In this document: positions 225 to 59,102 of the stretch, one piece after another
Layout of the letters: every line of letters starts with the position of its first letter
Numbering within the stretch: position 1 is the first letter of the stretch
Origin: Deltaproteobacteria bacterium
GTDB lineage: Bacteria > Desulfobacterota > Binatia > HRBIN30 > CADEER01
Reading direction: 5' to 3'
Length of the DNA stretch: 64,000 bases
Assembly (NCBI GenBank): GCA_029262455.1
Contig: JAJCZJ010000088.1
Location: forward strand, 458,273-522,272
Notes under the pieces: model-generated
Databases searched by the model: none
What the model saw: only the letters and a program-made list of their open reading frames with translations
Told to the model about the DNA's origin: nothing
Position numbers and translations under genes: made by a program

Positions 225-1205
225 CTATTTGCCTTCGTCGGGAGCATTGTCTTTCGACGCGCGGTCGTAGGCCGAAATGATTTCGCGCACCAGGCGGTGG
301 CGAACCACGTCGCGCTCATCGAAGTCGCAAAAAATGATGTCGGGGACATCGGCGAGGATTCTTTGGACCTCTTTCAAGCCCGACATCCGTCCGTTCGGTA
401 GATCGATCTGCGTGACGTCGCCGGTGATGACCGCCTTCGATCCATAGCCGAGCCGTGTCAGGAACATCTTCATCTGTTCGCTGGTCGTGTTCTGCGCCTC
501 GTCGAGGATCACGAAGGAGTCGTTCAGGGTGCGCCCGCGCATGAATGCGAGCGGCGCGACCTCGATGACGCCGCGCTCGAGCATTTTTTCGGCCTTTTCG
601 AAATCGACCATGTCGTGCAGAGCATCGTACAGAGGCCTTAGGTACGGATTGACCTTTTCCGCGAGATCACCCGGCAGAAAGCCGAGCTTCTCGCCGGCTT
701 CGACGGCTGGTCTTGCGAGAATCATGCGCGCGAAGTTACCGCGCACGACCTCGGCTACCGCCATTGCCATCGCCAGATAGGTCTTGCCTGTGCCGGCCGG
801 CCCGATGCCAAAGACGACGTCGTAGTTGCGGATCGCGTCGATGTAGGACTTCTGTGCTGTGCTCTTGGGCGTGACGACGCGCTTTTGCGACGTGATGTAG
901 ATCGAGTCGAGAAAGATGTCGGCGAGGTTCGCGTTGCGATCGCGGCTGAGAATCCGAATCGCGTAATCAATGTCGCTGGCGTAGACCGGGTAGTCGCGGG
1001 CGAGCAGTGCATCGATCTGCTTCAGCACCCGTTCGGCGAGCTCGCGTTGGATATCGTCGCCGGATATCAGCAAGGAGCGCTCGCCTAGCCCGATGCGAAC
1101 ATCGAGAGCTCGCTCGATGGCCTTTAGGTTCTTGTCTTCCTGACCAAGCAGATCGTTGAATCGCTGGTCGTCGTCGAAGCGAACCTCGGTTGTTTGATCA
1201 GTCAC
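225..1205 (-). CDS. phoH: PhoH-family ATPase
   Basis: This 326-aa cytosolic PhoH/PhoL-type ATPase, of helicase-like fold, is normally linked to RNA metabolism together with YbeY. An N-terminal KH-like segment (about residues 1-95, with IERALDVRIGLGERSLLISG) precedes the PhoH ATPase core. The Walker A motif is GIGPAGTGKTYLA and the Walker B-type motif is FVILDEAQN. Length is normal for the family. The start is a GTG (MTDQTTEV) only 12 bases after the alaS stop, so it is probably cotranscribed with alaS and ybeY. The exact substrate is not known for most family members. Confidence 0.93.
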   Translation of the reverse strand: MTDQTTEVRFDDDQRFNDLLGQEDKNLKAIERALDVRIGLGERSLLISGDDIQRELAERVLKQIDALLARDYPVYASDIDYAIRILSRDRNANLADIFLDSIYITSQKRVVTPKSTAQKSYIDAIRNYDVVFGIGPAGTGKTYLAMAMAVAEVVRGNFARMILARPAVEAGEKLGFLPGDLAEKVNPYLRPLYDALHDMVDFEKAEKMLERGVIEVAPLAFMRGRTLNDSFVILDEAQNTTSEQMKMFLTRLGYGSKAVITGDVTQIDLPNGRMSGLKEVQRILADVPDIIFCDFDERDVVRHRLVREIISAYDRASKDNAPDEGK

Positions 1206-38050: not shown

Positions 38051-38350
38051 CTCAAGGCTCCCACCGAGCCGCGCACCAATTTCAGACGGGATCCATGGCG
38101 AGCCACCAACCCCATGGAGGGCGAGGCCTCCTGCCGACCCGTGCACCAAATTCAAACGGAAACCATAGAGGGCCACCAACTCCATGGAGGGCGAGGCTCC
38201 CGCCGAGCCGCGCACCGATTTCAAACGGAAACTATAGAGGGCCACCAACCCCAAGGAGGGCGAGGCTCCCGCCGAGCCGCGCACCGATTTCAAACGGAAA
38301 CTATAGAGGGCCACCAACTCCATGGAGGGCGAGGCTCCTGCCGAGCCGTG
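38051..38350. repeat. Tandem intergenic repeat of about 69 nt, just over four copies
   Basis: The marker gccaccaac recurs at 38102, 38172, 38241 and 38310 (spacing 70, 69, 69), with a partial unit before and a broken one after. Each unit carries (c/t)ccatggagggcgaggct, gagccgcgcaccgatttc and aaacggaaactatagag. Because 69 is 23 codons, both strands keep open frames with a 23-residue period; these frames lack ribosome-binding sites and are not called as genes. The rest of the gap 38042-38395 shows nothing else. Confidence 0.92.
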
Positions 38351-38395
38351 TTCGCGACAAGGCGCGCCCCTGTGGCAAACAACCGCCTTACGATC

Positions 38396-39007
38396 CTACA
38401 ACCCCAGCTTGTCCAGCTTTTCGAGGTCGATCACCGCGAAGACACCTTGCGCCTCGACGGTAACGACATCGCCCGAGATACACTTCGCGGTCGAATGAAT
38501 CCGTTTCCCCTCGACGCGCTGACAAACCCCCTCGAAGCGAATCTCGCGGTTGAGCGGTGTAGGTTTGCGAAAGTCGAACTCGAGTCGGACCGTCGGACCG
38601 GGTGTACCGTGCAGCATGTTGGCGATGTTGAGCACCTGATCGAAGACGCCGGCGATGACGGCACCGTGAACACATCCGGGCGGGCCTTCGTAGACCGAAC
38701 CGAAGGTAGCGAAGCCGACAGCGGTGTTGCCTTCGTTCGCAAAGCGAACCGGCGCAGCAACCGGATTCTTCGTCCCCATGACGAAGTCGTAGGCAAAGAT
38801 CTCTTCGAACGTCGATTGACCACCAGCTGCGAATGGATAGCGCGGCGGCACAGGATCGGGGACATAGGAACGAAGCTTCTCCGTCAGGGAGCGCACACGG
38901 GACGACGCTTCGGCTATCGAAGCATCGTCCGGACGCGCTTGAATCGTTACCTCCAGAAGCTTGCGAATACTCGCCGCAAGATCGGCCTGCGCATCGGAGT
39001 CGGACAT
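38396..39007 (-). CDS. PaaI-family hotdog thioesterase
   Basis: A 203-aa protein with an N-terminal extension of about 70 residues and a C-terminal hotdog-fold domain of the PaaI/4HBT type. The domain shows VYEGPPGCVHGAVIAGVFDQ, whose HG-x6-D motif corresponds to the catalytic HGG...(D/E) helix of this family, then PTVRLEFDFRKPTPLNREI. It probably hydrolyses acyl-CoA thioesters. Divergent from the phd antitoxin gene. Substrate not known. Confidence 0.87.
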   Translation of the reverse strand: MSDSDAQADLAASIRKLLEVTIQARPDDASIAEASSRVRSLTEKLRSYVPDPVPPRYPFAAGGQSTFEEIFAYDFVMGTKNPVAAPVRFANEGNTAVGFATFGSVYEGPPGCVHGAVIAGVFDQVLNIANMLHGTPGPTVRLEFDFRKPTPLNREIRFEGVCQRVEGKRIHSTAKCISGDVVTVEAQGVFAVIDLEKLDKLGL

Positions 39008-41435: not shown

Positions 41436-43016
41436 TTATTGTGCCGCCAGGACCGAGGTTTCGATTGGCCTTCTAAGTGTTGCATAGGCGTACGGTCCGG
41501 CCACTTCGATACCATTGGCGGTAACTCCGCTAGTCTTGCTCATTCGCTGGATTTCACCGCCAAGTGCACCGATTGCATAGATCTCACCGACCGTCGGCTC
41601 TCCTGATTCTGTGCAGTTGGAGTAGAAGAGAATACTCCCAGTCGCGGTGTCCTCGGAAATATTCCCGACGCCGCAGCCGCCGCAGCCGGGTATGTCTTCA
41701 CTCGTTGGGGAACCCGGGGCACACCGATTACCAGAGATCTCTATTGCCGAGGAGGTGTCGTTGCCGAATTTTGTGAGCGGCCGAAGCGATCCCGGCGTGG
41801 CAAGGGTATCGACTGTGAAGAGTTGGCAGCCATGCGACGGGTTTTCGAGACCGGCATCCGATGTGAAGTAGACCCGCAAGCCATCGTTGCTGACCAGCCC
41901 GTTGGTGGTCCAGGGGCTCCCGAGATCGGTGAGCTGGAGAAATCGATCATCGTTGACAGCAATAATCTCGTTGGAGAAGGAGAACTGAGGCGAGGTCCCG
42001 AACAGCTGCTCGAAGAACGGGCAAGAGTATCCGGGGTCAGGGTTGAACGGGGGCAGGGGATTCTCGAGGCTGACCGTTATCGGCCTTCCGCTGGTGATCA
42101 GAAACGTATCTGGGATGCTTACTGCCCTCGCGAGGCCGGTCGAGACCTCGATGGCGACGAGCGTTGGTACGGACTCGTCCAGCCTTTGGCGAAAGAGCGA
42201 GAGCTGGCTGTCAGTCGCCGGGTCCGAGGCGGAGGTCGAGAGGAATGATACTGTGTCGTTGTCAACAAACCGGGCGCAGCATGTTCCGGCGCCGCCGAGT
42301 GGTGTTGGTGGATGCGGATCAAGGCGAGTGAGAGGGGATACTTCGGCTGTTCGGACATCCACCGTTTTGACGACCCAGTTGTCTGGTCGGTCGCAGATGA
42401 CCCTGTCGACGAAAACGAGTCGGTTGCCGTCCGGGCTGAATTCGAAGCCAGCCTGCCGAACTGCCCTGAATCCGTCGAAGGGCGGGATGCAACTCGGGTC
42501 GGTCAAGCGAGTGATCTGACCGGAGGCAACCTCGTAGAGGTAGATGCCATCACCTTCTCCGAGGGGGCCGTCCCCCCACAATCCGCTGAAGGTATCAAAC
42601 TGGAAGGCGACGCGCCTGCTGTCTGGGCTAACAGCCAGATATTGGATGGGAAATACGACTACATGAGACGGACCGGTCCGCGCCCTTCGGGCGATCTCGC
42701 ATGCGTCATCGAGGTTGTTTCCCCCGATAAGCCCGGTGTCGGGCGGAAGCGGAGTGTTGCGCGGTAGGTCGGTTGCACCCCGAACAATCGGAGGGAGTAC
42801 CTTGTCTCCACGCTGGAGTCGCAGCTCGTAGTGTGCGCGGACCATGCTTTCGCCGATTTCACATCCAGAGGCGACATAGGCGAGCAGCCCGGCTGGCCGC
42901 GGGGAAGCAACCGGTGTCGTCGCCCCATCATGGCCGCAAGCTAGTACGAAAAGTGCCAGAAGTGAGATTGACCGCGCGCCCGGGGAAACCATTGACGGGA
43001 GATTACCATGGTTCAT
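41436..43016 (-). CDS. TolB-like beta-propeller lipoprotein A
   Basis: A 526-aa lipoprotein with signal and lipobox (LLALFVLACGH). The body is a TolB/WD40-like propeller with GFEFSPDGNRLVFVD and LVSNDGLRVYFTSDAG blades. Distinctive Cys motifs are CIPPF, TCCARF and GCQLFTV, and the block FLQLTDLG is shared with two paralogues in this window. It is the fourth gene after the sigma/anti-sigma/FHA genes, 72 bases after the FHA stop. It is probably outer-membrane or periplasmic. Function unknown. No strong ribosome-binding site. Confidence 0.8.
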   Translation of the reverse strand: MNHGNLPSMVSPGARSISLLALFVLACGHDGATTPVASPRPAGLLAYVASGCEIGESMVRAHYELRLQRGDKVLPPIVRGATDLPRNTPLPPDTGLIGGNNLDDACEIARRARTGPSHVVVFPIQYLAVSPDSRRVAFQFDTFSGLWGDGPLGEGDGIYLYEVASGQITRLTDPSCIPPFDGFRAVRQAGFEFSPDGNRLVFVDRVICDRPDNWVVKTVDVRTAEVSPLTRLDPHPPTPLGGAGTCCARFVDNDTVSFLSTSASDPATDSQLSLFRQRLDESVPTLVAIEVSTGLARAVSIPDTFLITSGRPITVSLENPLPPFNPDPGYSCPFFEQLFGTSPQFSFSNEIIAVNDDRFLQLTDLGSPWTTNGLVSNDGLRVYFTSDAGLENPSHGCQLFTVDTLATPGSLRPLTKFGNDTSSAIEISGNRCAPGSPTSEDIPGCGGCGVGNISEDTATGSILFYSNCTESGEPTVGEIYAIGALGGEIQRMSKTSGVTANGIEVAGPYAYATLRRPIETSVLAAQ

Positions 43017-43088
43017 GTTTGCTGCGTAAGTCTTCAGCGTCTGAGATCAGTGCCTGTAGCGAGCTGGCGTACGAAGCCGCTGCTAGTT

Positions 43089-44372
43089 CTACCGCGCTGC
43101 AACTGGCTGCACGCCGTCGTTTCGCGCCGCTGTGATATCCACGGCGAATTCGAATCGATGGGACATCATCACTCTATCTACTAGTGCGCGCGATTCCGCG
43201 GTTGTCATCTGCTTGTCCGGGTTGGTGGTTGTACCGGTTGGGTCGATGAACAGGGCCTCATTGAGCAATCGGTGTTTGTTGGTGATAAGTGGCTCGATCC
43301 GCGGGCCTCGATTCTTCCAGACCCCGACGATCGCGTGGCGCGTCGTTTGGTCGCGAATCACGCACACTAGCGGCTGGTGGCCCAGGTGTTCGAGCGCCGC
43401 GGCCACAATGAGCGCGAGGTCGAGACAGGTCCCTGCCCCTCGCGCTGACTCGATATCTAGAGCGGATTCGGGTAGCCGAATCTTCTGTCCTCCAGAACTC
43501 GAGTACGGTGGGTCAGGTACGTATGCCAGGTGGTACCGTTCGCTCAGTACTTGGTAGATCGCCGCAAGGTCGGCAGCTGGGGATCCTCGCCCTTGGTAGC
43601 GTAGGGTCTGGGTAGCGACGCAAATATCAGCGATTCTGGCGTCGTTGGGGACGGTAAAACTCGCGAGAGAAGTGCGCGCCTCGCGGCGGAACGACCATTC
43701 GTTGAAAGCGAGGATCTCGATCGACCGGTGATTGTCGGGCAAGCGGAGGCCGTCGACAGATGCCGTGATTCGCTTGCTCGAACGCTCGACCTGCTTGGCG
43801 AGGCTCTGTTCGTTCACCTCCAACAGGCGACAACCAATGACGGTGGTGTTCTCCGGAAGAGTTTCGGGGATCTCGACAACGGAGTGGAGTACGTCCTCAA
43901 CTTCGATACTGAGAGATGCCGGACCACTCAACTGTTTCCCGGTATTGGTTACGGCGATCTGGCTGATAATTCGGCCCCCAGAGCGATACTGCGCGAGCCC
44001 GTATTCTGGGGCCATCCCGATCTCGATGGCGACGTTGCCGTGCTCGACGAAGATGTGGTGGCAGGGTGCGATCTGGACGATGCTCTGGCCGAGGCGCATG
44101 GCAGTCCTGCCGCTGCGCTTAGCGATTTGGCCCTTCAACAGTGGCTGGCCCTGAACAGTCGTGCCGTGTCGGCTGCCCAGGTCGGCCAGGCTGTAGTGTT
44201 GGTCGGATACCGTGATTGTCGCATGGCGGCGGGACACGAGGATATCCGGCGACAGATCGATGTCGGGAGGTCCGAGGTCGGGGTGCGGTCTACCGATGAC
44301 CTGAGGGCGTCCGTTCGGTAGCGGCCACACCTGGAGGGGGTATAGTCGTGCCAGTTGGAACAAGTCGGACAT
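43089..44372 (-). CDS. FHA domain fused to transglutaminase-like cysteine peptidase core
   Basis: A 427-aa cytosolic-looking protein. Residues about 20-100 are an FHA phosphothreonine-binding domain (ILVSRRHATITV and LADLGSRHGTTVQG). Residues about 130-240 form an Ig-like domain ending in ILAFNEWSFRREA and ASFTVPND. Residues about 265-385 are a transglutaminase-like domain. Its predicted triad is Cys316 (GAGTCLDLALIVAAALE), His346 (RHAIVGVW) and Asp378 (LFIDPTG). The same Ig-plus-TGL core is known from DUF4011-type helicases of conflict systems. 18 bases after the anti-sigma-like gene. Confidence 0.8.
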   Translation of the reverse strand: MSDLFQLARLYPLQVWPLPNGRPQVIGRPHPDLGPPDIDLSPDILVSRRHATITVSDQHYSLADLGSRHGTTVQGQPLLKGQIAKRSGRTAMRLGQSIVQIAPCHHIFVEHGNVAIEIGMAPEYGLAQYRSGGRIISQIAVTNTGKQLSGPASLSIEVEDVLHSVVEIPETLPENTTVIGCRLLEVNEQSLAKQVERSSKRITASVDGLRLPDNHRSIEILAFNEWSFRREARTSLASFTVPNDARIADICVATQTLRYQGRGSPAADLAAIYQVLSERYHLAYVPDPPYSSSGGQKIRLPESALDIESARGAGTCLDLALIVAAALEHLGHQPLVCVIRDQTTRHAIVGVWKNRGPRIEPLITNKHRLLNEALFIDPTGTTTNPDKQMTTAESRALVDRVMMSHRFEFAVDITAARNDGVQPVAAR

Positions 44373-44390
44373 GACGCAACCGGGGTCAGG

Positions 44391-45122
44391 TTAGGCGGGC
44401 TTGGCGTCTGTGATCGGTTCGATCGCGACGATATAGTTGCCCGGGGGAATGTCTGCGAAGCGAACGGTTCGATATCCAGTGTCCGGATCCTCAACAATGC
44501 TCGCGATGCGGAGAAGTTCCTTGCCGTCTTGGGATCGACCGGTCAGAGCGACGAGCGGCAATGTTGCGTCCTCGGGGGCCTGGTCGATCCGTACCGTCAG
44601 GTCTGTTGACTCACCGCCCTGCACCGCGACCCTGGCCCGGCCGACGCCCGGCACACTTGCGGTTGTCAGCAAGGCGGAACCCTCGTCACCTGGCCCCCGA
44701 ACTGCGGTCGCTGCCACGGGTTGGAAGCTCCACTCACTGCCGTCGCGGACGAAGGCGTCGATACTTTCAGCGACGACGGATGCGACGCCATCGACGAAGT
44801 TTGTCGTGATCTGCAGTGCGCCTTCCGCTTTGCCAGACCACATTTCGAGCCACGCTTCGATTCTGGGGCGGAGCCCTACTGGAACCTGCGCAAGAGCTTT
44901 CCCAAGCACGCCCTCGATGGAGGCTCGGCTCACTAGAGCAGCGTGGTACTCGGCGGGCATCTCGATCAATTTGGAGAATACCGTGGCGTCGCGTGCCACC
45001 GACGCGCACTGCGCGCACTGTGCGATGTGGCGCTCGACCTGGTCTTCGAAATCGTCGCCGAGCGTACCGCCTATGTAGTCGAGTAACACGTCGCTGCTGA
45101 AATGTGAGTCCCTCGGATTCAT
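44391..45122 (-). CDS. Zinc-finger anti-sigma-like protein
   Basis: A 243-aa protein with an N-terminal ZAS-type zinc finger (VERHIAQCAQCAS; His32, Cys36, Cys39), as in anti-sigma factors. The C-terminal half is beta-rich (VRFADIPPGNYIVAIEPI). No transmembrane helix is visible, so it is probably soluble. Its ATG overlaps the sigma factor TGA (ATGA), which indicates translational coupling and a functional pair. It is followed by the FHA gene. Whether it inhibits the sigma factor has not been shown. Confidence 0.8.
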   Translation of the reverse strand: MNPRDSHFSSDVLLDYIGGTLGDDFEDQVERHIAQCAQCASVARDATVFSKLIEMPAEYHAALVSRASIEGVLGKALAQVPVGLRPRIEAWLEMWSGKAEGALQITTNFVDGVASVVAESIDAFVRDGSEWSFQPVAATAVRGPGDEGSALLTTASVPGVGRARVAVQGGESTDLTVRIDQAPEDATLPLVALTGRSQDGKELLRIASIVEDPDTGYRTVRFADIPPGNYIVAIEPITDAKPA

Positions 45123-45940
45123 CGCACGCCTTCCTCGACGGCGTCCCCTACGCTGGAAGAAAGAAGGGCTGACAGACTCCCAGGCTTCGTGCGTTGGATG
45201 TTGCGGAACACTGTTCGGCGCACGGTGTCCCACCAGCGAGTGACGAATGCTTGTGGATCGGCATCGGGAGGAAAGTAGGCGGATAGTGGTAGCGCGCCCG
45301 TCTTCTTTTCCGGGACATGCGAATATGCGTTTCTGGTTCTTCGATCTCTTGCGACTTCAGTGATCTGGAGTTCCATCTTTGCGTGGAGAGGAGCAAATGC
45401 CTTGGCGAGATCGGGGCTCATGACGAGCGCAGCGTAGTCGGACTCCAACCGACGAGCGAGCTGTCCGATGATCTGGTCCGACAACTCATCGACAATCTCT
45501 AGGGGTTTCCATTTGAGCTTGCTGAAGCCGAAGACGACGAGCTCATTGGGCGGCCGTTCGCACGACATCGAGATAACCAAAAGGTCGAACAACGCTCTGG
45601 ACAGCTCGACGCAGACATCGAGAGGCAGATCGTCTGCGGGTTGATTCTCGATTGCCGAGGGTAGTTCGTCGTCGCCTTCTGGAGGTTGCCACTCAATAGG
45701 AGAGTTGGACTTTCCTGACCAATGACGTTTGAGGACGATCTCTGCCCAGTTCTTGGTGAAGCGCCAGAAGGACGCGATCTCGGGATCGTATGTCTCGATG
45801 CGCGGCCAAACCTCCGTCCAAGTGTCCTGAGCAAGGTCGCGCGCCAGTTGATCAGCGCCCACGCGGGCTCGAAAGTACCCGTAAAGACGCTGGTCGTGAT
45901 GCTCCACGAGATCTTGGTAGTTTATCGCGTCTGTGGGCAT
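45119..45940 (-). CDS. ECF-like RNA polymerase sigma factor, divergent
   Basis: About 273 aa from the Met at 45940; longer starts reaching 46114 exist and none has a good ribosome-binding site. A sigma-70 region 2 is clear (YQDLVEHHDQRLYGYFRARV then LAQDTWTEVWPRI). Region 4 is unusual: PPNELVVFGFSKLKWKPLEI followed by VDELSDQIIGQLARRLESDY, which fits the promoter -35 binding helices loosely. A C-terminal extension of about 90 residues follows. It heads the operon and is divergent from TolB-like lipoprotein B. Confidence 0.78.
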   Translation of the reverse strand: MPTDAINYQDLVEHHDQRLYGYFRARVGADQLARDLAQDTWTEVWPRIETYDPEIASFWRFTKNWAEIVLKRHWSGKSNSPIEWQPPEGDDELPSAIENQPADDLPLDVCVELSRALFDLLVISMSCERPPNELVVFGFSKLKWKPLEIVDELSDQIIGQLARRLESDYAALVMSPDLAKAFAPLHAKMELQITEVARDRRTRNAYSHVPEKKTGALPLSAYFPPDADPQAFVTRWWDTVRRTVFRNIQRTKPGSLSALLSSSVGDAVEEGVR

Positions 45941-46180: not shown

Positions 46181-47794
46181 ATGCGGAACATTTGGAAGCC
46201 GACTTCCTGGGCGTTAGCAGGCGCTCGCGTTGTGATGGGAAGCTTACTCAGCGCGGGGCTCATCTTGATCGGAGCGTCCTGTAGTCGCGATTCGGCTGGT
46301 CGTGGGACCGATGGAACACGGGGTCTGCTTGCAGCGACCCAGGCGGATGTCGTTCTCCGGTGCGAGGTGCTGGGCAATGAAATACGGTTCCACGCCGAGC
46401 TCAGAGTGAAGGTTGGCGAAGCTACGGAGGAGACTGTCCGACAGTACGATCTGGTTCGGCCGGCAGGTTCTACAATAGCTGTGGGTTCTCAGCCCCAGTT
46501 CGAAGACCTTCGGCTGGATGCAGCATGCTCAATCATAGGCAGCGCTCGATTTGGTCCATTGTTCAGCTTCGTCAACCCGGTCCCGTACATTTCTGTGAGT
46601 CGTGATGGTCGGAAGGTGGCGTTCGTACAAGATCGATGGGGCTTGCTCGACGCGGATGTAGGAGAAGAGGGAGTGTTTCTATACGACGTCGCGGCCAAGA
46701 CAGTTGACCGTGTGTCTAACCGGGCTCCCTGTATTCCACCGTTTACCACCAAGACCTTCCCGAACCCCACTGCGTTCGCAGGGTTCCATTTGAGCCCGGA
46801 TGGAAGTCGGCTGGTCTTTGTCGATTGCGTCGCCCATGAAGACGACAGCACCGGTGATCTCGAAGTCGTGACGCTGGAAATTGCAACCGGGGAGGGGCAC
46901 CAAGTCACGGAACTGGGGGCATCGCCGGAGCACGATGCGACAGAGTACCCGACATGCTGCGCGCGTTTTGTCAGCGATGAATCGGTGCTCTTCTTTTCAA
47001 CCTTTGGCCAGTCCCCAGCGGAGAACGGTGTCCAGCGAAAGGCCTATCAGGTCAATTTGGACGGGACGGGTCTTCGCGACGTGACCTTTTCTACCGAGTC
47101 TCGCGGCGGTGAGGTACTGGAGTCCTTTTCCATCACGGGCTCGAGCCCGATAGCGCTGGAGGCGGTCGTTGATGGGATTCCGCGCAATCCGATCGAGTGT
47201 CCTGAACTCGCAAGTTTGATCGGCGAAGAGGACCCGGAGGAGCCATTTTTTCTTGGTCCTTTTGTCCGGGTTCAGGAGGTGGTGTACGTCGACGATGGCC
47301 TGGTTCTACAGCTTACAGACTACGGACGGTGGGAAACTGCTCTAGGCGGTGTCGCTCTTTCGCGAGATGGTCAACATGTTTTCTTCAGTGCCTCTGTCGA
47401 TGTGGGAGAGAACTCTGGGAATCATTGCCAAATATTTAAGCAGAATATCCTGACTCGCCACATCAAACAGCTCACACCCCCGCGTGAACCAGATGTCTCT
47501 GGAGGCGGGTGTGTGGCGTCGGCCCCCCCTTCCTGTGGGTGTTTCGTATCAAGTCCGGATGAAGACCCCAAGACCGGAACTCTCATGTTCGCGTCATCTT
47601 GCGACCTTGATCCTGGCCTGAATCCGTCTGGAATGCACATTTATGCGATGAATCCGGACGATCCTAGCTCACTACGGCAAGTCAGCCCGCCGTCTTTCGC
47701 GTGCGACAGTTCTCCCGGAGTTTGTAGCGAGCTACGGGCCGTTGTTCGGGCAACTTCTAATCTCCAGAACACGACTGGAGGCTTGGCGTTTTGA
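46181..47794 (+). CDS. TolB-like beta-propeller lipoprotein B
   Basis: A 537-aa lipoprotein with lipobox-like LIGASC. It shares with the two paralogues the motifs PCIPPF, GFHLSPDGSRLVFVD, PTCCARFVSDE, LQLTDYG and HCQIFKQN. The C-terminal part carries further cysteines (GGGCVASAPPSCGCF). It starts at the ATG directly upstream (MRNIWKPTSW); a downstream Met closer to the signal is an alternative. It is divergent from the sigma gene, so a shared regulatory region is likely. Function unknown. Confidence 0.8.
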   Translation: MRNIWKPTSWALAGARVVMGSLLSAGLILIGASCSRDSAGRGTDGTRGLLAATQADVVLRCEVLGNEIRFHAELRVKVGEATEETVRQYDLVRPAGSTIAVGSQPQFEDLRLDAACSIIGSARFGPLFSFVNPVPYISVSRDGRKVAFVQDRWGLLDADVGEEGVFLYDVAAKTVDRVSNRAPCIPPFTTKTFPNPTAFAGFHLSPDGSRLVFVDCVAHEDDSTGDLEVVTLEIATGEGHQVTELGASPEHDATEYPTCCARFVSDESVLFFSTFGQSPAENGVQRKAYQVNLDGTGLRDVTFSTESRGGEVLESFSITGSSPIALEAVVDGIPRNPIECPELASLIGEEDPEEPFFLGPFVRVQEVVYVDDGLVLQLTDYGRWETALGGVALSRDGQHVFFSASVDVGENSGNHCQIFKQNILTRHIKQLTPPREPDVSGGGCVASAPPSCGCFVSSPDEDPKTGTLMFASSCDLDPGLNPSGMHIYAMNPDDPSSLRQVSPPSFACDSSPGVCSELRAVVRATSNLQNTTGGLAF

Positions 47795-51080: not shown

Positions 51081-52292
51081 CTAGCGGGTCGGAAAGGAGT
51101 ACTCGAGTTGCACGGTTGGAATAGCATCCGCACGCAGGCCGTCGTCGTTTAGCGGCAGCAACACGTTCGCGGTGATCACGAACTGTTCTGCCAGCAAATA
51201 CCTCAAACCGATTCCGACGTCGAAGATGTCGCTCCGCTCGATCTGGAGAAAGAAGGGAGCGTCGATCTTGTCGGTCTGCTCGCTGAGTTCGTGGCGTCCC
51301 AGGAATACCAGAGATCCGTGTAGACCCCCAAATAGCCGCGCAGTGGAGCCGATCGTCCATTTGGCGATGCTGCGCTCAACGTCGTTTGCGTTAATGTCGA
51401 TACCGAGATTTCCGTAGACCTCGAAGCGGTCGGCGAAAACCCTTGAGCCGATGATCGATAAAGGCAGGCGCGTGTCACCGGTTCCCTGCAATTGGTTGGG
51501 GTCACCGCTCGGCAGAATGAGGCCTGCCTGCATGGCCATGTCGATCGCGCTGTTCCTGAGTAGAACGTATTTGAAGCGAAACAGGATATCGCCGACGTCG
51601 AACGAGGAATTCGAGGAAGCGCCACTGATGGTCCCTTCATCGTCCTGATTTTTTACTCGGAATTGCTCTAGGCGTGGATCTGGAAATTTTCCAGTCACCC
51701 TTCCCTTCAGCGAAGTTCGAACCAGCGGAAGTGTGACGTTGACGTCCAGGTCCGGCGTCAGGCCATACGTCACGCCCGGGGAAATGATATGCGCCTCGAC
51801 ATCGAGTGACGCGTTCACAAGGGCTGGAAGGAAATTTGTGAATCGGCCGTTTCCTTCTTCGTCGGGATCTCCCAGCTGAACGCCGTCGTTGGGGATCGAA
51901 ACGACCCTTCCCCCAATGGACTTCTTGTTCTGGAGGCTGTCGAGATCTGCGCCGAATGCTTGCTTCAGGTCGACGTAGGAGTACGTGATCGACACGTCCA
52001 TTTCCCCAGATCCGATGGACTCCGCGCGCTCGCCGAAGATAGGTCCAAGCACTCGGGTCTGCCGCTCGTAACTCTGGAGCTCTGGGTTGAAAGAGTATGT
52101 CACGCTAGAGCTGGCGGATGCGACGGGATAAAACGCTGCAACTGTATCCGCAAGAGCCTCGCCCAGCGGTTCTAGCTCCAGTCCACCGAGCTCATTGCTG
52201 AAGATGTCGGTGAGGTCTCCTGCCAGGGTTGCTTTTGGGACGATTCCCGATGCGATCAGACCGATCAGCAACAACCATCGTATACTATACAC
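51081..52292 (-). CDS. Outer-membrane beta-barrel protein, transporter-like
   Basis: A 403-aa exported protein starting at GTG with GGGAGGG upstream. The signal peptide ends near TLAGD. The body has alternating beta-strand character (YGLTPDLDVNVTLPLVRTSL, AMQAGLILPSGDPNQLQGTG and GIGLRYLLAEQFVITANVLL) and ends YSFPTR. This resembles the MetA-pathway phenol-degradation/transporter-type barrels. The ligand is unknown. It is convergent with the esterase gene and downstream of TolB-like lipoprotein C. Confidence 0.65.
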   Translation of the reverse strand: MYSIRWLLLIGLIASGIVPKATLAGDLTDIFSNELGGLELEPLGEALADTVAAFYPVASASSSVTYSFNPELQSYERQTRVLGPIFGERAESIGSGEMDVSITYSYVDLKQAFGADLDSLQNKKSIGGRVVSIPNDGVQLGDPDEEGNGRFTNFLPALVNASLDVEAHIISPGVTYGLTPDLDVNVTLPLVRTSLKGRVTGKFPDPRLEQFRVKNQDDEGTISGASSNSSFDVGDILFRFKYVLLRNSAIDMAMQAGLILPSGDPNQLQGTGDTRLPLSIIGSRVFADRFEVYGNLGIDINANDVERSIAKWTIGSTARLFGGLHGSLVFLGRHELSEQTDKIDAPFFLQIERSDIFDVGIGLRYLLAEQFVITANVLLPLNDDGLRADAIPTVQLEYSFPTR

Positions 52293-52596: not shown

Positions 52597-54204
52597 TCAT
52601 GGAATCGCAGCGACGTTGCTTTCGGTGCCCAGGCCGGTGCCGAGGTGGCTGGCCTCGACGACGAGGAGGGTTTCTGTCCGATGGACAACACCAGGCTCGC
52701 TTTCGAGGACGGCCGGTACGGCGCCGTCGACGTCGATTGGGATCTCCAGAAATGTGGATGCGCGTCTGAACCCCGTTTCCTCCTCGGTGGAGAGATCGCA
52801 GTTCGAAATAAAGGCAAGGGTACCGCGCTCGGTCATTCCCGGAGGGGTCAGGTAACATCCCCCGTCGCATCCGTTCTTGAATACGAAAGAAAAGCACCCG
52901 ACCTGTGAGGTCAAGTTGCTTCGGATTTCGGTGTGCTGACGGATGGAACCGCCCAGTCTGTCGACCGAGAATATCTGGCAATTTCCGTTGTCATCCGTCG
53001 AAACGAAGTAGATCCGTCCGTCAGGTAAGATCCGTGGTTGCAGAAAACCTGTGTCTACCTTTCCAAAGTCCGTGAGTTGTAGCAGTTGGCCGTCGTCGGA
53101 AATGAAGATTTCTTGCTCCCACTGGATCGGCGTGAGATCGAAGGACCCCGCCAAAGAATCAGAAAGCGGCGCCAAGAGGTAGTCCAGGCAAGGCACGAAT
53201 CGATCGATGAAATTTGGCTTTTCTCGAACCCGAACGGCCACGGCCACGGGTTCGCCGGAACTAATGACGAAACTTTGCTCGGTTGTCCCGTCGGGTCGTT
53301 CGACAAGAACGGGAGTGGTGATGTCAGTGATTTCACCGCCGCCAGTGGGAACTTTGAAGGCGCGTCGCAGCAGCTGACCATCAATCGGACCCCCAGGCGC
53401 AGAGAAGAAGAGAACATCAGTCTGGTTCTGCGCAAAGCTTGGGCAGCATGTGGAGGGTGCGCCGGGTGGGATCTTCGGTTGTGCCGGGAGGTGCGTCAGC
53501 TGTATTCGTGCTCCAGTCATAGTGTCGATCGTCAAGATCTGAATATCCTGTCGATCGTCGACGGTCTCGCCGACGAAGTCTGCGACCAGGAGCCTTGAGC
53601 CGTCTTTGTTTAGGACGAACCCACCAAAGGAGCTGATGGTTCTTGTATCTTCGAAAGGCGGGACGCGGGTCGGCTCGGTTAGTCGCCTGAGGTCCGTACC
53701 GTCTTCATTGATCGTGTAGATACCCTCTTCGATCTTTGGAGATATACGCCCGCGCCCGGTGATCTCGTCGGCGACGGCGGTTCCCCTCTCGGTGTACTGA
53801 AAGATGACACGCCGATCTGGCGTCAGCGCGGCGTACTGGAAGGGGGTCAGCAATCCCATCCAGATTCCCAATCCCGACTCCGCGTTATAGATGCATGCCT
53901 GCTCAGCGAGCTTGCTCTTGATCGCGGGCGCGTCGTAGCTGATCAGGCATCGCTCGGTTGCGCCATCCTCGGGCCGAATCACGATCCAAGACGTGAACGT
54001 CGTGATCACGGAGTCGTCGGGCTGCTTCTCATTGATACAGCGCGTCGTGACGCGCACTGGAAGCTCGGCCGCGTTGACGTTCTTGGTGGGTTGCTCGGTT
54101 TGATCTGAGGGACCGCAAGCGAGCGAGAATAGTGGTGTCGCGAACAGCAATGCGGCCAGGGTGTTACTCCCTGATCTCGATGTGAAGGATAGCCGGGCGT
54201 CCAT
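52597..54204 (-). CDS. TolB-like beta-propeller lipoprotein C
   Basis: A 535-aa lipoprotein with lipobox (FSLACGPSD), third member of the family. Shared motifs: VPPFEDTRTI, GGFVLNKDGSRLLVADF, STCCPSF, LLQLTDFG and NCQIFSVD. The C-terminal part differs from the other two. The ATG of MDARLSFTS is preferred over an upstream TTG. It is divergent from the Ser/Thr kinase gene; the starts are 95 bases apart. Function unknown. Confidence 0.8.
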   Translation of the reverse strand: MDARLSFTSRSGSNTLAALLFATPLFSLACGPSDQTEQPTKNVNAAELPVRVTTRCINEKQPDDSVITTFTSWIVIRPEDGATERCLISYDAPAIKSKLAEQACIYNAESGLGIWMGLLTPFQYAALTPDRRVIFQYTERGTAVADEITGRGRISPKIEEGIYTINEDGTDLRRLTEPTRVPPFEDTRTISSFGGFVLNKDGSRLLVADFVGETVDDRQDIQILTIDTMTGARIQLTHLPAQPKIPPGAPSTCCPSFAQNQTDVLFFSAPGGPIDGQLLRRAFKVPTGGGEITDITTPVLVERPDGTTEQSFVISSGEPVAVAVRVREKPNFIDRFVPCLDYLLAPLSDSLAGSFDLTPIQWEQEIFISDDGQLLQLTDFGKVDTGFLQPRILPDGRIYFVSTDDNGNCQIFSVDRLGGSIRQHTEIRSNLTSQVGCFSFVFKNGCDGGCYLTPPGMTERGTLAFISNCDLSTEEETGFRRASTFLEIPIDVDGAVPAVLESEPGVVHRTETLLVVEASHLGTGLGTESNVAAIP

Positions 54205-54298
54205 AGCTACTGTTTGTTTAGTCAAGGGTTGCGAGACGAACAACCGCGAGCAAGAATTGCCGGCCTTCGCCCTGGACCGTGGGCTCTAGCGACATCTC

Positions 54299-56308
54299 AT
54301 GCCTGACCGCTTTGACGAAACAGCTCCTGCTACGCCGGGGGAACAGCTTGGGGACTTTCTGCTCCTCGACATTATTGGTGCGGGTACGACCGGAACGGTC
54401 TACCGGGCTCGTCAGATCAGCATGGATCGCGAGGTGGCGGTTAAGATCCTGCATGAGCATCTAGCTTCGAATTCCGCGCTCCTCGAGCGCTTTCGCCGCG
54501 AGGCCCAGGTCACTGGGCGACTGCGCCACAACAACGTCGTTGCTGGAATCCAGGCGGGTGAAGCCGGAGGTAAGAAGTTCTTCGCGATGGAGCTCGCGGA
54601 GGGCGAAGGCCTCGACGCCATTCTGGAGCGTCGCGGTCGCCTTCCTTTGCCCGAGGCGATGGATCTCCTACGGCAAATTGCAGGTGCACTCGAGTACGCG
54701 CACGCCCGTGGTATTACCCACCGCGATCTCAAGCCGTCCAATGTGGTTGTAGATCGGGCCGGCAATGCGAAGGTTACCGACCTCGGCTTGGCCGCAGCGA
54801 TCAACGATGCGGTAAGGATCACCCAGCAAGGTGGTCTGATTGGAACCCCGGCGTACATGGCGCCGGAACAGGTCCGAGATGCGTCTTCGGCGGACGAGAG
54901 GAGCGATCTGTATTCACTGGGCGTCACGTTTTACGAGATGCTGACGGGTGAATTGCCGATCGAGGAAGCATCTCGCGACGAACTCTTCGTTGCCAAGCGG
55001 AAGGGCATCTTTCGCCCGGTCCGCGACGTTGTGCCGGAGCTGGACGGGTCAATCGACCGAATCGTAGCGCGTTTGCTGAACCCCGAGCCGGGACGTCGAT
55101 TTCAGAGGGCGAGCGAGTTGCTTGATGTTCTCGATGACCCGAAGCACTCGGTCGCCGCGGAAAATGCGAAGCGGGGCTTAGGGAGGAGGCGGGTCGCGGG
55201 CCTGCTTGGGGTCGCCTTCGTGGTCTTGGCGACCATCTTCAGCCAGTTTTTCATGTCTAGCCAAAGCACGAACCCGTCGGATCGGCCGCCACCGATTGGG
55301 GAATCGGCCAATCTCGCGGCAGTGGCCGCCAGGACCGACATTGCGGTGAGCGGCGCGGTCTCGCCCGGTCCTGTCACTTTCGGAGTGATGAGCTTCAAGA
55401 CGCTGGGGGCCAGGTCTGATCTCGAGGAATGGGGCGAGACCGTTCGGGACGAACTCAATACAATCTTGAGTGAGATCAAGAGCGTGAAGGTCTATTCGAA
55501 GGAGTTCATAGACTTTCTCGTGACCCGGAAGGGAATGTCGGAAATCGAGGTGGCGAAGGAGCTCGGCATTTCGAAGTTTCTTTCGGGTCGTCTCATCGAG
55601 CAGGGAGACATCCTCAAGATCGAGACGCATGTGGTCGACGTCGTGTCCGGTGTGCTCGATGCGTCGTTTACGACAGCGGGTGCGTCGAGCAACTTCCTCG
55701 ACCTGCAGCGACGGTTTGCTATCGCAACGGTCGAGAATCTGGAGCTCCGGCTGTCGGGCGTCGAGCGCGCGAAGCTTGCCCAACGAGGCGAGGCGGATGC
55801 TCTCGATCTGCGAAACCTAATGCTCGAATCCGAAGGGGCGCCGGGAGGGATCGCCATGCTTCCGGACGAGCCTTTGTCGTGGCTCGGCGGCCGCTTCGAT
55901 CTGTGGGCATTGTGCACCTTTCTGCAGCCGTCGAGCGCATTTGCTGACGAGGATCTGACTGCCGGCGGGGAGCCGAGTGCGGAAGACGAGATCCGGGAGC
56001 TGCTCGAGGCCTACCGTCTGGCTACCGAGGCGCGTGAAATCGAGGAGTTGGCGGCTCTCTATGTAGATCTACCGGACGCGCAGCGACAGGCGCAGAGTCG
56101 ATACTTTGAAAATGTCGAGAAGCTCAAGGTCGTGTTCGACGAGCTCGACGTTGCAGTTGCGGGGGATGAGGCGGTGGTGAGCTTTACGCGGGTCGACGAC
56201 TTTGTTGATCGCCGAACGGGTCGGGAGATGCACTTCTCGGTCCGTCTGACCAAGCTGCTGCGGCGTGCGGACGACGGATGGAGACTCTCGGGTACTGCGA
56301 TGCAGTAG
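54299..56308 (+). CDS. Transmembrane Ser/Thr protein kinase with FlgO-like sensor and NTF2-like tail
   Basis: A 669-aa kinase. Cytosolic residues about 20-280 form the kinase domain: G-loop GAGTTGTVY (27-35), Lys49 in VAVK, HRDLKPSN (141-148), DLG (161-163, in place of DFG) and APE (188-190). One transmembrane helix follows (VAGLLGVAFVVLATIFSQFF, about 299-318). The outer part, about 350-480, resembles the FlgO/TolB-like periplasmic fold (GVMSFKTLG...WGETVRDEL). The C-terminus (about 555-669) looks like an NTF2/SnoaL-type domain. It could phosphorylate the FHA protein's partner. Confidence 0.88.
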   Translation: MPDRFDETAPATPGEQLGDFLLLDIIGAGTTGTVYRARQISMDREVAVKILHEHLASNSALLERFRREAQVTGRLRHNNVVAGIQAGEAGGKKFFAMELAEGEGLDAILERRGRLPLPEAMDLLRQIAGALEYAHARGITHRDLKPSNVVVDRAGNAKVTDLGLAAAINDAVRITQQGGLIGTPAYMAPEQVRDASSADERSDLYSLGVTFYEMLTGELPIEEASRDELFVAKRKGIFRPVRDVVPELDGSIDRIVARLLNPEPGRRFQRASELLDVLDDPKHSVAAENAKRGLGRRRVAGLLGVAFVVLATIFSQFFMSSQSTNPSDRPPPIGESANLAAVAARTDIAVSGAVSPGPVTFGVMSFKTLGARSDLEEWGETVRDELNTILSEIKSVKVYSKEFIDFLVTRKGMSEIEVAKELGISKFLSGRLIEQGDILKIETHVVDVVSGVLDASFTTAGASSNFLDLQRRFAIATVENLELRLSGVERAKLAQRGEADALDLRNLMLESEGAPGGIAMLPDEPLSWLGGRFDLWALCTFLQPSSAFADEDLTAGGEPSAEDEIRELLEAYRLATEAREIEELAALYVDLPDAQRQAQSRYFENVEKLKVVFDELDVAVAGDEAVVSFTRVDDFVDRRTGREMHFSVRLTKLLRRADDGWRLSGTAMQ

Positions 56309-56396
56309 GGCAAAGGCCCCTCTAAAGTGGAAAACGATTGCGAGATCTCTACTCACCTCGGGTACCTACCGGAGACGAGGCAGCGAGGAGAAGATC

Positions 56397-59102
56397 ATGG
56401 TCCATTCAGGCGAAGTCATCAATGTTTTCATCAATCCTCTTAGGTCTCGGGCCGGGCGCTGGGCTGTAGTCGCGGTCCTGGCTCTTACAGCTACTTGTGC
56501 CCCGGCTGGGGCGCGGTTCTGCGGCGGAGATTCCGACGGCGATGGGCGAGTCTCCGTTGCTGAGCTCGTGACCGGCGTTGGTGTTGCCCTTGGTTTGCGG
56601 CCCGTCGAGGACGCCTCCGGGTTCGACTTAGACGTGGATGGCGCCGTATCCGTCTCGGAGCTGGTTACCGCGGTGAGATCGTCGCTTGAGGGGTGCCCGA
56701 AGTGGGTCATTGACATCGGTAGAGCGGAGGGATTTCCCGGCTCTACTGTCAGAATCGGGACGACGATGGATCCGGTATGGTCCGCGCAGTTCTCATACCA
56801 TCTCCACTTCGATCTCTTAACCCGGGTGTCCGAGTGTTCGGGTGGAGGCGCCGAGGTCACGTTTCCGACGCCAACTAGCGCGCAAGTGTCTGACGCATTC
56901 TTCGCTGTGCAATGCTCGGTGAAGATCTCGGAGTCGGCGCGCCCGGGGGTCTATCCGTTGTCATGCTCCAATCAACGAGCCACTGGTCGAGAAGGTGACC
57001 TCGATGGTGTTGTTTGCAGAACCGGTACAATCCGGGTTCTGTCGCCGGATAGTGATGGCGATGGCTTGACCGACCAAGAGGAAGAATTGCTAGGCACTGA
57101 TCCGCACGAGTCGGACTCGGACCGGGACAACCTCGACGACGGCTGGGAGGCGCGGAACGGTCTCGATCCATTGGATAGTGCCGAGGCTCAGGGTGGCAGC
57201 GGTGATCCTGACGGGGACGGCCTTGGCAATAGCGGCGAGCGGGACGCGGGGACAGATCCGCTCGACTCGGACACCGACGACGACCAGCTGTTCGACGGCG
57301 CCGAGATTGGTGTTGATACGGATCCCTTGAACCCGGATTCCGATGGGGATGGAGTGTTTGATGGCGATGAGGTCACTTTGTATGAAACGGATCCACTGCA
57401 CGGCGACTCCGATCGCGATGGATTAGGTGACGCCGCGGAGATTGAGATCGGCACGAACCCGCTATCCGTGGACTCCGATGCCGACGAGCTACCTGATGGA
57501 TGGGAGCGGGACCATGGTCTAGACCCTCTGGATCCGTCCGGTGCCGACGGGGCGTCGGGGGACCCTGATCATGACCAGCTGAAGAATCTGGACGAGCTAG
57601 ACGCCGGTACACTACCGCGCACCCGGGACAGTGATTCTGATGAGCTCGATGATGGTGAAGAAGTAGATCTCGGTACCAATCCGCTGGACCCCGATACCGA
57701 TGGTGATGCTTTGTCGGATGGGGACGAAGTCGAGGTGTATGGGACCGACCCACGATTTTCTGACAGTGATCGAGACGATGCGAGCGACGGCGACGAGGTC
57801 CTCGCGGGCACCGACCCGCTCCGAACCGACACCGACCAAGACCAATTGATAGACGGGTGGGAGCTCCTGCATCGTCTCGACCCTCTTGATTCCACCGGTG
57901 AGAATGGGCCTTTGGGGGATCCGGACAAGGACGATCTCGATAATCTCACAGAGCAAGCTCTGGGTACGGCGCCGCGCAGCCGGGATACTGACTTTGATCG
58001 TCTTGATGACGGCTTCGAGATTGCGGTCACAAACACCGACCCGCTCGAATCTGATACCGATGATGACGGCTCTCCGGACGGAGAGGAGGTTAGCGTCTTT
58101 TTTACCGATCCTAACAATCCCGATACGGACGGCGGAGGTCGCAGCGACGGCGCCGAGATCTGGGACGACTGGACCAATCCACTTGATCCATCCGATGACG
58201 TTCTGGCCTGCGGGGACGGCGATCTTCAGTCAGGCGAGGAATGTGACGACGCCAACAATGTTGGTGGAGACGGTTGTGCGGCCAATTGTACCGATGAACG
58301 CTTGCTGCCGTTTGTACTTGGCGATGGGTCGGACGCGATTGTGCAAACCGAGAGTCTCCAAATCGCTCTCGATCTTGGCGGTCAGCTCGTGTTCGCTGTT
58401 GGTTCGGGGCGACCGGAGGAGGTACAGCTAGCCAATCCGAAGCAGGTTCTGACCGCGGCAGGAGTGGAGATCGAAGTGTTACCACCGGGCAGTGTACCGG
58501 TGACGATTCCCGTCGATACGATTGCGTTCGACCCGATTGACGTGCCGGGCATCGCCTGCGTGTGTCTCGGCGGCGGCGCGATGTTCAGATCGGAGAACGC
58601 CGGTGCCGGTTTTCTTGGGTGCTCTCCAGGAGGACTGTCCGAAACGGACTATCTGCTCACTCGGGCGGATTCCAATGAGCAGTTCAGCTTTAGTGGTGAT
58701 GCGCCGTCCGGGTCCGCGTTGCTCAGTCTGCACTCGAGATTGGACATACTGGTTGGTGCCGACTGCTCCATCGGCGACAGGCACCCCAGCAAGGGTCCCG
58801 ACGGGATTCCCTGCACGTCGGATGACCAAGCCGTGACGGTCTTCAAGACCACCCTTCTGACGACGGGCCGTGCAGAAGGTCGAATTGTTGAAGCGAATGG
58901 TGGTAGCGAGCCCATCGTTGACGATGGTGACTGTGGCGATGGGGAATGCCTGACGCATGCCTCGGGTGTCTTGTTCGACTGCGATTTGTTGGAGGCCGAT
59001 ACGGCGGCCCCGTTCACGGGGTCGGTGCTCGCTGGTGCAAGTACCTCGAACGCAGTCGGATTCGGGGACTTTGTCCTTACTCTGGAGTTGGTGGGCGATT
59101 GA
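56397..59102 (+). CDS. Large secreted Ca-binding-type protein (dockerin-like, TSP3 repeats, Cys-rich, shared C-domain)
   Basis: A 901-aa exported protein. GCGAGGAG precedes the ATG. After the signal peptide (about residues 1-40) come: a dockerin-like pair (CGGDSDGDGRVSVAELVTGV and VDGAVSVSELVTAV, residues 42-100); an unrecognised 110-residue region; about 400 residues of bacterial TSP3 repeats of the D-x-D-x-D type (DSDGDGVFDGDEV, DTDGDALSDGDEV); a DUF4215-type motif (CGDGDLQSGEECDDANN); and a C-terminal domain shared with the protein at 48.0 kb. A calcium-dependent surface role is likely. Confidence 0.85.
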   Translation: MVHSGEVINVFINPLRSRAGRWAVVAVLALTATCAPAGARFCGGDSDGDGRVSVAELVTGVGVALGLRPVEDASGFDLDVDGAVSVSELVTAVRSSLEGCPKWVIDIGRAEGFPGSTVRIGTTMDPVWSAQFSYHLHFDLLTRVSECSGGGAEVTFPTPTSAQVSDAFFAVQCSVKISESARPGVYPLSCSNQRATGREGDLDGVVCRTGTIRVLSPDSDGDGLTDQEEELLGTDPHESDSDRDNLDDGWEARNGLDPLDSAEAQGGSGDPDGDGLGNSGERDAGTDPLDSDTDDDQLFDGAEIGVDTDPLNPDSDGDGVFDGDEVTLYETDPLHGDSDRDGLGDAAEIEIGTNPLSVDSDADELPDGWERDHGLDPLDPSGADGASGDPDHDQLKNLDELDAGTLPRTRDSDSDELDDGEEVDLGTNPLDPDTDGDALSDGDEVEVYGTDPRFSDSDRDDASDGDEVLAGTDPLRTDTDQDQLIDGWELLHRLDPLDSTGENGPLGDPDKDDLDNLTEQALGTAPRSRDTDFDRLDDGFEIAVTNTDPLESDTDDDGSPDGEEVSVFFTDPNNPDTDGGGRSDGAEIWDDWTNPLDPSDDVLACGDGDLQSGEECDDANNVGGDGCAANCTDERLLPFVLGDGSDAIVQTESLQIALDLGGQLVFAVGSGRPEEVQLANPKQVLTAAGVEIEVLPPGSVPVTIPVDTIAFDPIDVPGIACVCLGGGAMFRSENAGAGFLGCSPGGLSETDYLLTRADSNEQFSFSGDAPSGSALLSLHSRLDILVGADCSIGDRHPSKGPDGIPCTSDDQAVTVFKTTLLTTGRAEGRIVEANGGSEPIVDDGDCGDGECLTHASGVLFDCDLLEADTAAPFTGSVLAGASTSNAVGFGDFVLTLELVGD

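Follow-up and report, generated by a model that had tools for sequence, protein, structure and literature searches.

Here, we describe a conserved three-gene unit encoding a sigma-like protein, a putative zinc-finger anti-sigma (ZAS) protein, and a protein that joins an FHA domain to a transglutaminase-like (TGL) module. It lies on the minus strand of a 64,000-nucleotide stretch (hereafter the window) of the genome of Deltaproteobacteria bacterium (GenBank assembly GCA_029262455.1, contig JAJCZJ010000088.1, positions 458,273 to 522,272), with the sigma-like gene at 45119..45940 (273 amino acids), the ZAS-like gene at 44391..45122 (243 amino acids), and the FHA-TGL gene at 43089..44372 (427 amino acids). 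Homologous sigma, ZAS, and TGL genes keep this order in three other genomes, and the arrangement is therefore more than chance. A gene for a Ser/Thr kinase appears to belong to the set as well, whereas a downstream propeller lipoprotein gene does not. Judged from sequence, the set suggests an undescribed kind of gene switching that would operate by cutting the brake on a sigma-like protein. The first-pass annotation of the window had proposed an operon of four tightly spaced genes that included the lipoprotein. All four open reading frames (ORFs) were recovered with the spacing given there, i.e., an ATGA overlap of ZAS start and sigma stop, an 18-base gap between the ZAS and FHA-TGL genes, and a 72-base gap between the FHA-TGL and lipoprotein genes. 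As a conserved unit, however, the four genes did not hold up, because the full set including the lipoprotein was found in the window only.

A protein search with the window FHA-TGL protein matched 46 of 148 genomes of the class (E ≤ 1e-3), many through FHA-only stretches and three (G002, G068, and G069) through long frames of a helicase kind. Full-length homologues were encoded by three of the 148 genomes, namely the window's own, G076 (locus L038, contig G076:C13), and G104 (locus L039). In both relatives, homologous ZAS and sigma genes lie directly upstream of the FHA-TGL gene in the same order as in the window, with blastp identities to the window proteins (G076 and G104, respectively) of 38% and 47% for sigma, 40% and 38% for ZAS, and 34% and 33% for FHA-TGL. 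Among 395 evenly drawn genomes of the phylum, an FHA-TGL profile (E ≤ 1e-20) matched seven, comprising the window's own genome, five with frames of 2009-2259 amino acids, and G296 with a 510-amino-acid frame. A sigma C-domain profile matched three of the 395 (the window's own, G291, and G296). The two separate profiles thus picked adjacent places on one contig, G296:C71 (locus L054), which carries sigma, ZAS, and a TGL protein that has a Clp N-domain and no FHA domain. The order sigma-ZAS-TGL is identical in all four loci with a stand-alone TGL gene (window, G076, G104, and G296); start and stop codons overlap at one of two junctions in the window and at both in G104 and G296, while the G076 junctions are gaps. 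The neighbourhood that the first-pass annotation had wanted checked is therefore not scattered, and its order recurs in G076, G104, and G296.

A ZAS-like gene directly follows the sigma-family gene in all five loci found, including a distant fifth one in G291 (locus L055, contig G291:C173), where an ORF with the C-domain and no sigma2 precedes a ZAS-like gene with a longer C-terminus (L055 3645-5152). This G291 arrangement hints that the sigma C-domain works without a sigma2. Beside the G296 set, genes for a kinase and for TPR-like, DnaK-like, and OmpA-like proteins stand in a row (L054 1678-8785).

The distribution of the set is rare and patchy. Within the class, the sigma C-domain profile matched three of 145 genomes, the same three that encode full-length FHA-TGL proteins, and no match was found in three listed congeners of the window genome (G066-G068). 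Because this profile was built from the three class loci, only the absence from other class genomes is informative, and we dropped a chance figure for the class distribution, 1/C(145,3)=2e-6, as a test for the same reason. A second search of the phylum, run with an improved sigma profile, yielded no further genome, two of its three matches being rows of that profile. In the classes of G296 and G291, only these genomes themselves were matched (one of 26 and one of five genomes, respectively). A pattern scan of genome contigs, with patterns taken from four rows, returned one relative (L050), which is the G104 contig itself, as it contains the three genes of L039 letter for letter; its patterns are narrow, so absence elsewhere says little. 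Three scans of viral contigs with FHA-TGL or sigma gave no relative, and tblastn against plasmids gave no match with the window sigma or the G104 ZAS protein.

The first gene had been read as encoding an extracytoplasmic function (ECF)-like sigma factor, which stood for sigma2 but not for sigma4. The Pfam domain Sigma70_r2 was found at E=9.9e-10 in the window protein (residues 11-76), at 4.9e-12 in L038, and at 1.3e-14 in L039, and a sigma profile matched ECF sigmas in the PDB over sigma2 (best E=3.3e-6). Sigma2 occupies residues 8-77 and is followed by an all-helical C-domain, with homologues of the protein in L038, L039, and L054. We name the protein sigma-like because sigma4 was not detected. 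The C-domain matched nothing below E=1.2 among PDB profiles, and only visual inspection brings out a faint sigma4-like pattern. In a fold search the best rows were ECF sigmas at E=4.4e-3 or weaker; structure models of the sigma-like and FHA-TGL proteins were built from two-row alignments and are reliable only for sigma2 and FHA. The start codon, ATG at 45940, agrees with the homologues. In sigma2.2, the acidic motif DxxDxxQE, reported as an RNA polymerase contact in the accessible part of one publication (PMC13147305), has its first Asp replaced in all four proteins (L, V, A, A), with the second Asp and the Gln kept in all four.

The zinc-finger partner gene proposed in the first-pass annotation is borne out as one half of a predicted sigma/anti-sigma pair. 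The ligands of the pattern Hx24Hx3Cx2C (His7, His32, Cys36, and Cys39 in the window) are invariant in all five ZAS-like proteins, and a profile of the five homologues matches ChrR at E=0.0011 with the ligands in register. The next rows were DdvA and 3hug_B, an entry labelled as a membrane protein that we take to be RslA. A three-row profile placed ChrR only at E=0.2, behind two homeodomain rows. The Pfam model zf-HC2 is over its cut-off in G104, below it in the window (E=8.4e-4, 19.8 bits, cut-off 22.2), and was not reported for G076. Behind the zinc finger, the window protein has a helical middle and a conserved C-terminal part in which visual inspection suggests a beta domain, and hydropathy predicts no transmembrane helix.

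The third protein begins with an FHA domain (Pfam residues 25-80, 44133..44300), whose membership rests on fold and profile: Pfam E=5.9e-11, AlphaFold confidence (pLDDT) of 74-88 for residues 21-100, and a Foldseek match to the FHA structure 3gqs at E=1.7e-7. Core residues G27 R28, S47 R48 x H50, and G70 T71 are kept, and the Asn of the NGT motif, which we take to be an FHA-motif residue, is replaced by His69. Phospho-threonine reading by this domain is plausible, and binding is made less certain by the replacement. Beyond the FHA domain, residues 129-426 match residues 5-314 of the 1903-residue NCBIfam model ProA at E=3.5e-33, with 114 bits versus a cut-off of 1500. This part is a beta-rich and TGL module of about 320 residues (43092..44066) that is common to DUF4011 helicases; we aligned 12 modules (four belonging to the sigma-ZAS-TGL set, the other eight to long DUF4011-helicase-type frames), and the window module is 21-26% identical to the helicase rows. 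An intact peptidase-like triad had been noted in the window, and its Cys (Cys316, codon 43425-43427) and His (His346, codon 43335-43337) are invariant in all 12 modules. The third position (Asp377, codon 43242-43244) varies, with Asp in four and Glu in eight, while the order Cys-His-Asp/Glu is kept. Compared with PDB profiles, the best row for the module was CPR-C4 (E=0.19). The TGL proteins of all three relatives end in a Clp N-domain of ClpA/B/C type (profile E=4.9e-6 to ClpB and 6.3e-6 to ClpA), which Pfam detects weakly in one of the three.

The transmembrane Ser/Thr kinase that the first-pass annotation had linked to the operon is encoded at 54299..56308 on the plus strand (669 amino acids; Pkinase E=3.8e-50, SnoaL-like C-terminus with SnoaL_3 E=2.8e-6) and is proposed here as the signal input. 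Its translation contains VAVK, HRDLKPSN, and DLG, presumably the motifs of an active kinase. The gene starts 8.4 kb from the sigma start, with four genes between; a kinase gene lies 2.7 kb from sigma in G076, is divergently adjacent to sigma in G104 (first Met 58 bases from the sigma start), and in G296 is 5.8 kb away from the TGL gene. The link is thus stronger than seen from the window alone, because three relatives also carry a kinase gene beside the set, and we regard it as good. A kinase gene is near sigma in four of five sigma-family loci; the contig of the fifth, in G291, is only 5.6 kb long. Kinase genes over the cut-off number nine in the window's own genome, four in G076 (five matches), 11 in G104, and two in G296, and the chance of such proximity is approximately 3%, 1%, 2%, and 1% for the window, G076, G104, and G296, respectively, or 2.5e-6 for the three relatives jointly, figures that are post hoc and use rounded genome sizes. 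One transmembrane helix is predicted in the kinases of the window (299-317), G076, and G104, and none in that of G296.

It is very unlikely, in our view, that the kinase lies nearby only by coincidence and that sigma, ZAS, and TGL make up the whole core, which would respond to a signal in the cytoplasm detected through the ZAS C-terminal domain. Such a core would fit the soluble ZAS protein, the absence of FHA in G296, and the distance of the window kinase. Of the proteins in the window's own genome, the window kinase matches the G076 locus kinase best (272.5 bits; nine matches at E ≤ 1e-10), while for the C-terminal half of the G076 kinase alone a different protein of the window's genome is closer (41% versus 34% identity), which also fits an incidental neighbour. 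On the other side, a kinase gene is near all four TGL loci and is the divergent neighbour of sigma in G104, and a broken second sigma-like copy with in-frame stops lies directly upstream of the G076 kinase gene (L038 17557-18400). Two proteins resemble the locus kinase in its C-terminal half, G000:C122:9597-10547 (41%) and G000:C31:169148-170122 (34%); the kinase domain was unmatched in that search.

Gene order, domains, the conserved zinc, Cys, and His ligands, and the recurrent kinase linkage form the observed basis on which we tentatively favour, at somewhat less than even confidence, a proteolytic sigma switch triggered by phospho-threonine. Its strongest step is the conserved sigma-ZAS-TGL unit. 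Briefly, the sigma-like protein would be held in the cytoplasm by its ZAS partner. On detecting envelope or intracellular stress, the membrane kinase would phosphorylate a Thr, either its own or one of the ZAS protein. This phospho-threonine would then be bound by the FHA domain, and the TGL-type Cys-His peptidase, brought to the ZAS protein in this way, would cut it. In the orthologues, the Clp N-domain may help pass the ZAS protein to a ClpC/ClpA unfoldase or put it under unfoldase control. Freed sigma would finally redirect RNA polymerase. We infer binding, the phosphorylation site, proteolysis, the direction of the pathway, and the role of sigma in transcription from this basis, and cleavage of the ZAS protein in particular from the Cys-His module and, by analogy, from two precedents, RseA/ClpC1P2 and Craspase/Csx30. 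In the accessible parts of these accounts, phosphorylation by PknB releases mycobacterial anti-sigma factors, a paper being cited in which ClpC1P2 degrades RseA in a phosphorylation-dependent manner, and Craspase cuts Csx30 within its complex with RpoE. A reassessment of RseA as an anti-sigma factor is announced in one abstract.

Several observations speak against the proteolytic switch. The NGT Asn of the FHA domain is His, Tyr, and His in the three proteins that have the domain, and G296 has no FHA at all. Support for the TGL fold is weak: Transglut_core matched one of 11 modules (E=1.9e-4) and DUF553 weakly four of 11 (best 0.012), the window module matched no Pfam TGL model, and, in the structure model, pLDDT stays under 50 across the TGL portion. 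The window TGL protein ends before the Clp N-domain, and the window kinase is separated from sigma by the distance and the four genes given above. Pfam sigma4 models were unmatched by all five C-domains scanned (E ≤ 10), and the G291 ORF carries its C-domain without the sigma2 that is intact in the other four of the five loci; for these reasons, the sigma-like protein may not be an ordinary sigma. No kinase or TGL gene was found on the 5.6-kb G291 contig, which ends approximately 0.4 kb after the ZAS ORF.

A further alternative is an arrangement in which the kinase acts directly on sigma (ECF43-like) or on the ZAS protein (RshA/RseA-like), and the FHA-TGL protein is a non-proteolytic, phospho-dependent adaptor that feeds the ZAS protein to ClpC through the Clp N-domain. 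We consider this unlikely. Direct phosphorylation of ECF43 sigmas and of anti-sigma factors is reported in the accessible literature, three relatives do carry the Clp N-domain, and in the four proteins the sigma2.2 DxxD starts with L, V, A, and A in place of an acidic residue. However, the window protein lacks the Clp N-domain, invariance of Cys and His in 12 of 12 modules is unusual for a dead adaptor, the second DxxD Asp is kept in all four, and the anti-sigma-like gene sets these loci apart from ECF43.

The affinity of the TGL module to ProA-type anti-phage proteins, which may use it likewise, raises the alternative that the TGL protein is an effector, with sigma and anti-sigma (or their C-domains) controlling or scaffolding a stress- or phage-activated peptidase that would cut a cellular target and stop growth. 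We regard such an effector as rather unlikely. The module is the ProA N-terminus, and a long frame of G069 (L042 4462-10101) is over the ProA cut-off (1656.8 versus 1500 bits), its later part matching PADLOC PDC-S37 and Hhe. The patchy distribution, with the sigma C-domain in three of 145 class genomes and absent from the listed congeners, the G291 C-domain without sigma2, and peptidase-plus-sigma neighbourhoods known from the accessible literature on conflict systems point the same way. Against it stand the shared part, which is the TGL module and not the helicase, the intact sigma2 in four of five loci, the lack of any PADLOC model match among the seven sigma, ZAS, or TGL proteins scanned, and the lack of a defence gene among ten long window ORFs scanned. 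G069, the source of this ProA anti-phage helicase, belongs to the family of the window genome. On plasmids, the window FHA-TGL protein matched 65 records, two over at least 80% of the query, and most of the 20 places listed are annotated as DUF4011 or DUF3320 proteins.

It is equally doubtful that the set is a CRISPR-free counterpart of Craspase, in which kinase-written phospho-threonine would recruit an FHA-TGL protein built on the ProA sensor/peptidase module to cleave a zinc anti-sigma factor and launch a sigma-driven, possibly anti-phage programme. The anti-phage side of this idea draws on the common ProA module and the patchy distribution.

None of the individual parts is new, and a sigma gene with a neighbouring peptidase gene or with a neighbouring kinase gene is an established theme in the literature accessible to us. 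The set resembles phospho-dependent RseA/ClpC1P2 proteolysis and Craspase/Csx30/RpoE and matches the definition of neither, nor that of ECF43 or ProA. With the mycobacterial SigE/RseA-PknB-ClpC1P2 and SigH/RshA systems, as far as their accessible descriptions go, it shares an ECF-type sigma2, a zinc-finger anti-sigma (in SigH/RshA inactivated by Ser/Thr phosphorylation), a Ser/Thr kinase input, and the Clp N-domain theme. There, reader and protease are the housekeeping ClpC1P2, whereas here a dedicated FHA domain and Cys-His module adjoin the pair. In type III-E Craspase (TPR-CHAT, Csx30, RpoE), as described in the portions available, a protease gene likewise lies beside sigma and its binding partner, which the protease cuts. 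Craspase differs in having CHAT instead of TGL, an RNA-guided trigger instead of kinase and FHA, and Csx30 instead of ZAS; assignment to it was rejected because Pfam gave no CHAT match in the TGL peptidase or the neighbours scanned. ECF43 (EcfP/PknT, EcfK/PknS) likewise pairs an ECF-type sigma gene with a Ser/Thr kinase gene close by. The accessible part of its description mentions no FHA-peptidase, and the anti-sigma-like gene and the one DxxD acid kept here led us to reject this assignment as well. ProA and related DUF4011-DUF3320 anti-phage helicases (NF058533; PDC-S37) share the N-terminal beta-rich and TGL module, yet the window set lacks the helicase and DUF3320 parts, has FHA and, in relatives, the Clp N-domain, and falls far short of the ProA cut-off (114 versus 1500 bits), so this assignment was likewise rejected. 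The EACC2/caspase conflict systems with ECF sigma (Kaur/Burroughs/Aravind), in the excerpts available, have a peptidase gene beside an ECF sigma and a proposed conditional activation, but with caspase and TRADD-N/EACC2 in place of FHA-TGL, ZAS, and kinase. A literature search with subscription journals outside its scope found no description combining FHA, a ProA-type TGL module, a zinc anti-sigma, and a kinase. If true, the proteolytic switch would represent phospho-dependent anti-sigma proteolysis in one operon with its own reader-peptidase. It would also give a testable role to the widespread, unexplained beta/TGL module with which DUF4011-DUF3320 anti-phage helicases begin, in a form that is small and soluble and has a candidate substrate encoded next door.

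Three propeller lipoproteins flank these genes: A (41436..43016, minus strand; PD40 E=9.1e-7), downstream in the apparent operon, B (46181..47794, plus strand), divergent from the sigma gene, and C (52597..54243, minus strand), divergent from the kinase gene. They are indeed paralogues, as initially noted, with 29-33% identity. Their placement, including the 72-base gap and shared strand of A, is what would favour a four-gene system with the lipoproteins serving the same circuit as sensors or targets in the periplasm. We give this little credence, and rejected a lipoprotein within the conserved unit, as A, B, and C had no blastp match (E ≤ 1e-3) among ORFs of at least 100 amino acids in the loci of G076, G104, G296, and G291. 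The membership proposed in the first-pass annotation thus did not survive the comparison.

A Phenol_MetA_deg-type outer-membrane-like protein (Pfam) is encoded at 51081..52292 on the minus strand; among the relatives, only G076 has a homologue placed between the kinase and sigma genes (23% identity, E=2.9e-13), i.e., in two of four loci including the window. An intergenic tandem DNA repeat is suggested at 38095-38463, where translations of overlapping ORFs show short stretches of repeated peptide. A 945-amino-acid protein with seven TSP3 repeats is encoded at 56265-59102, downstream of the kinase.

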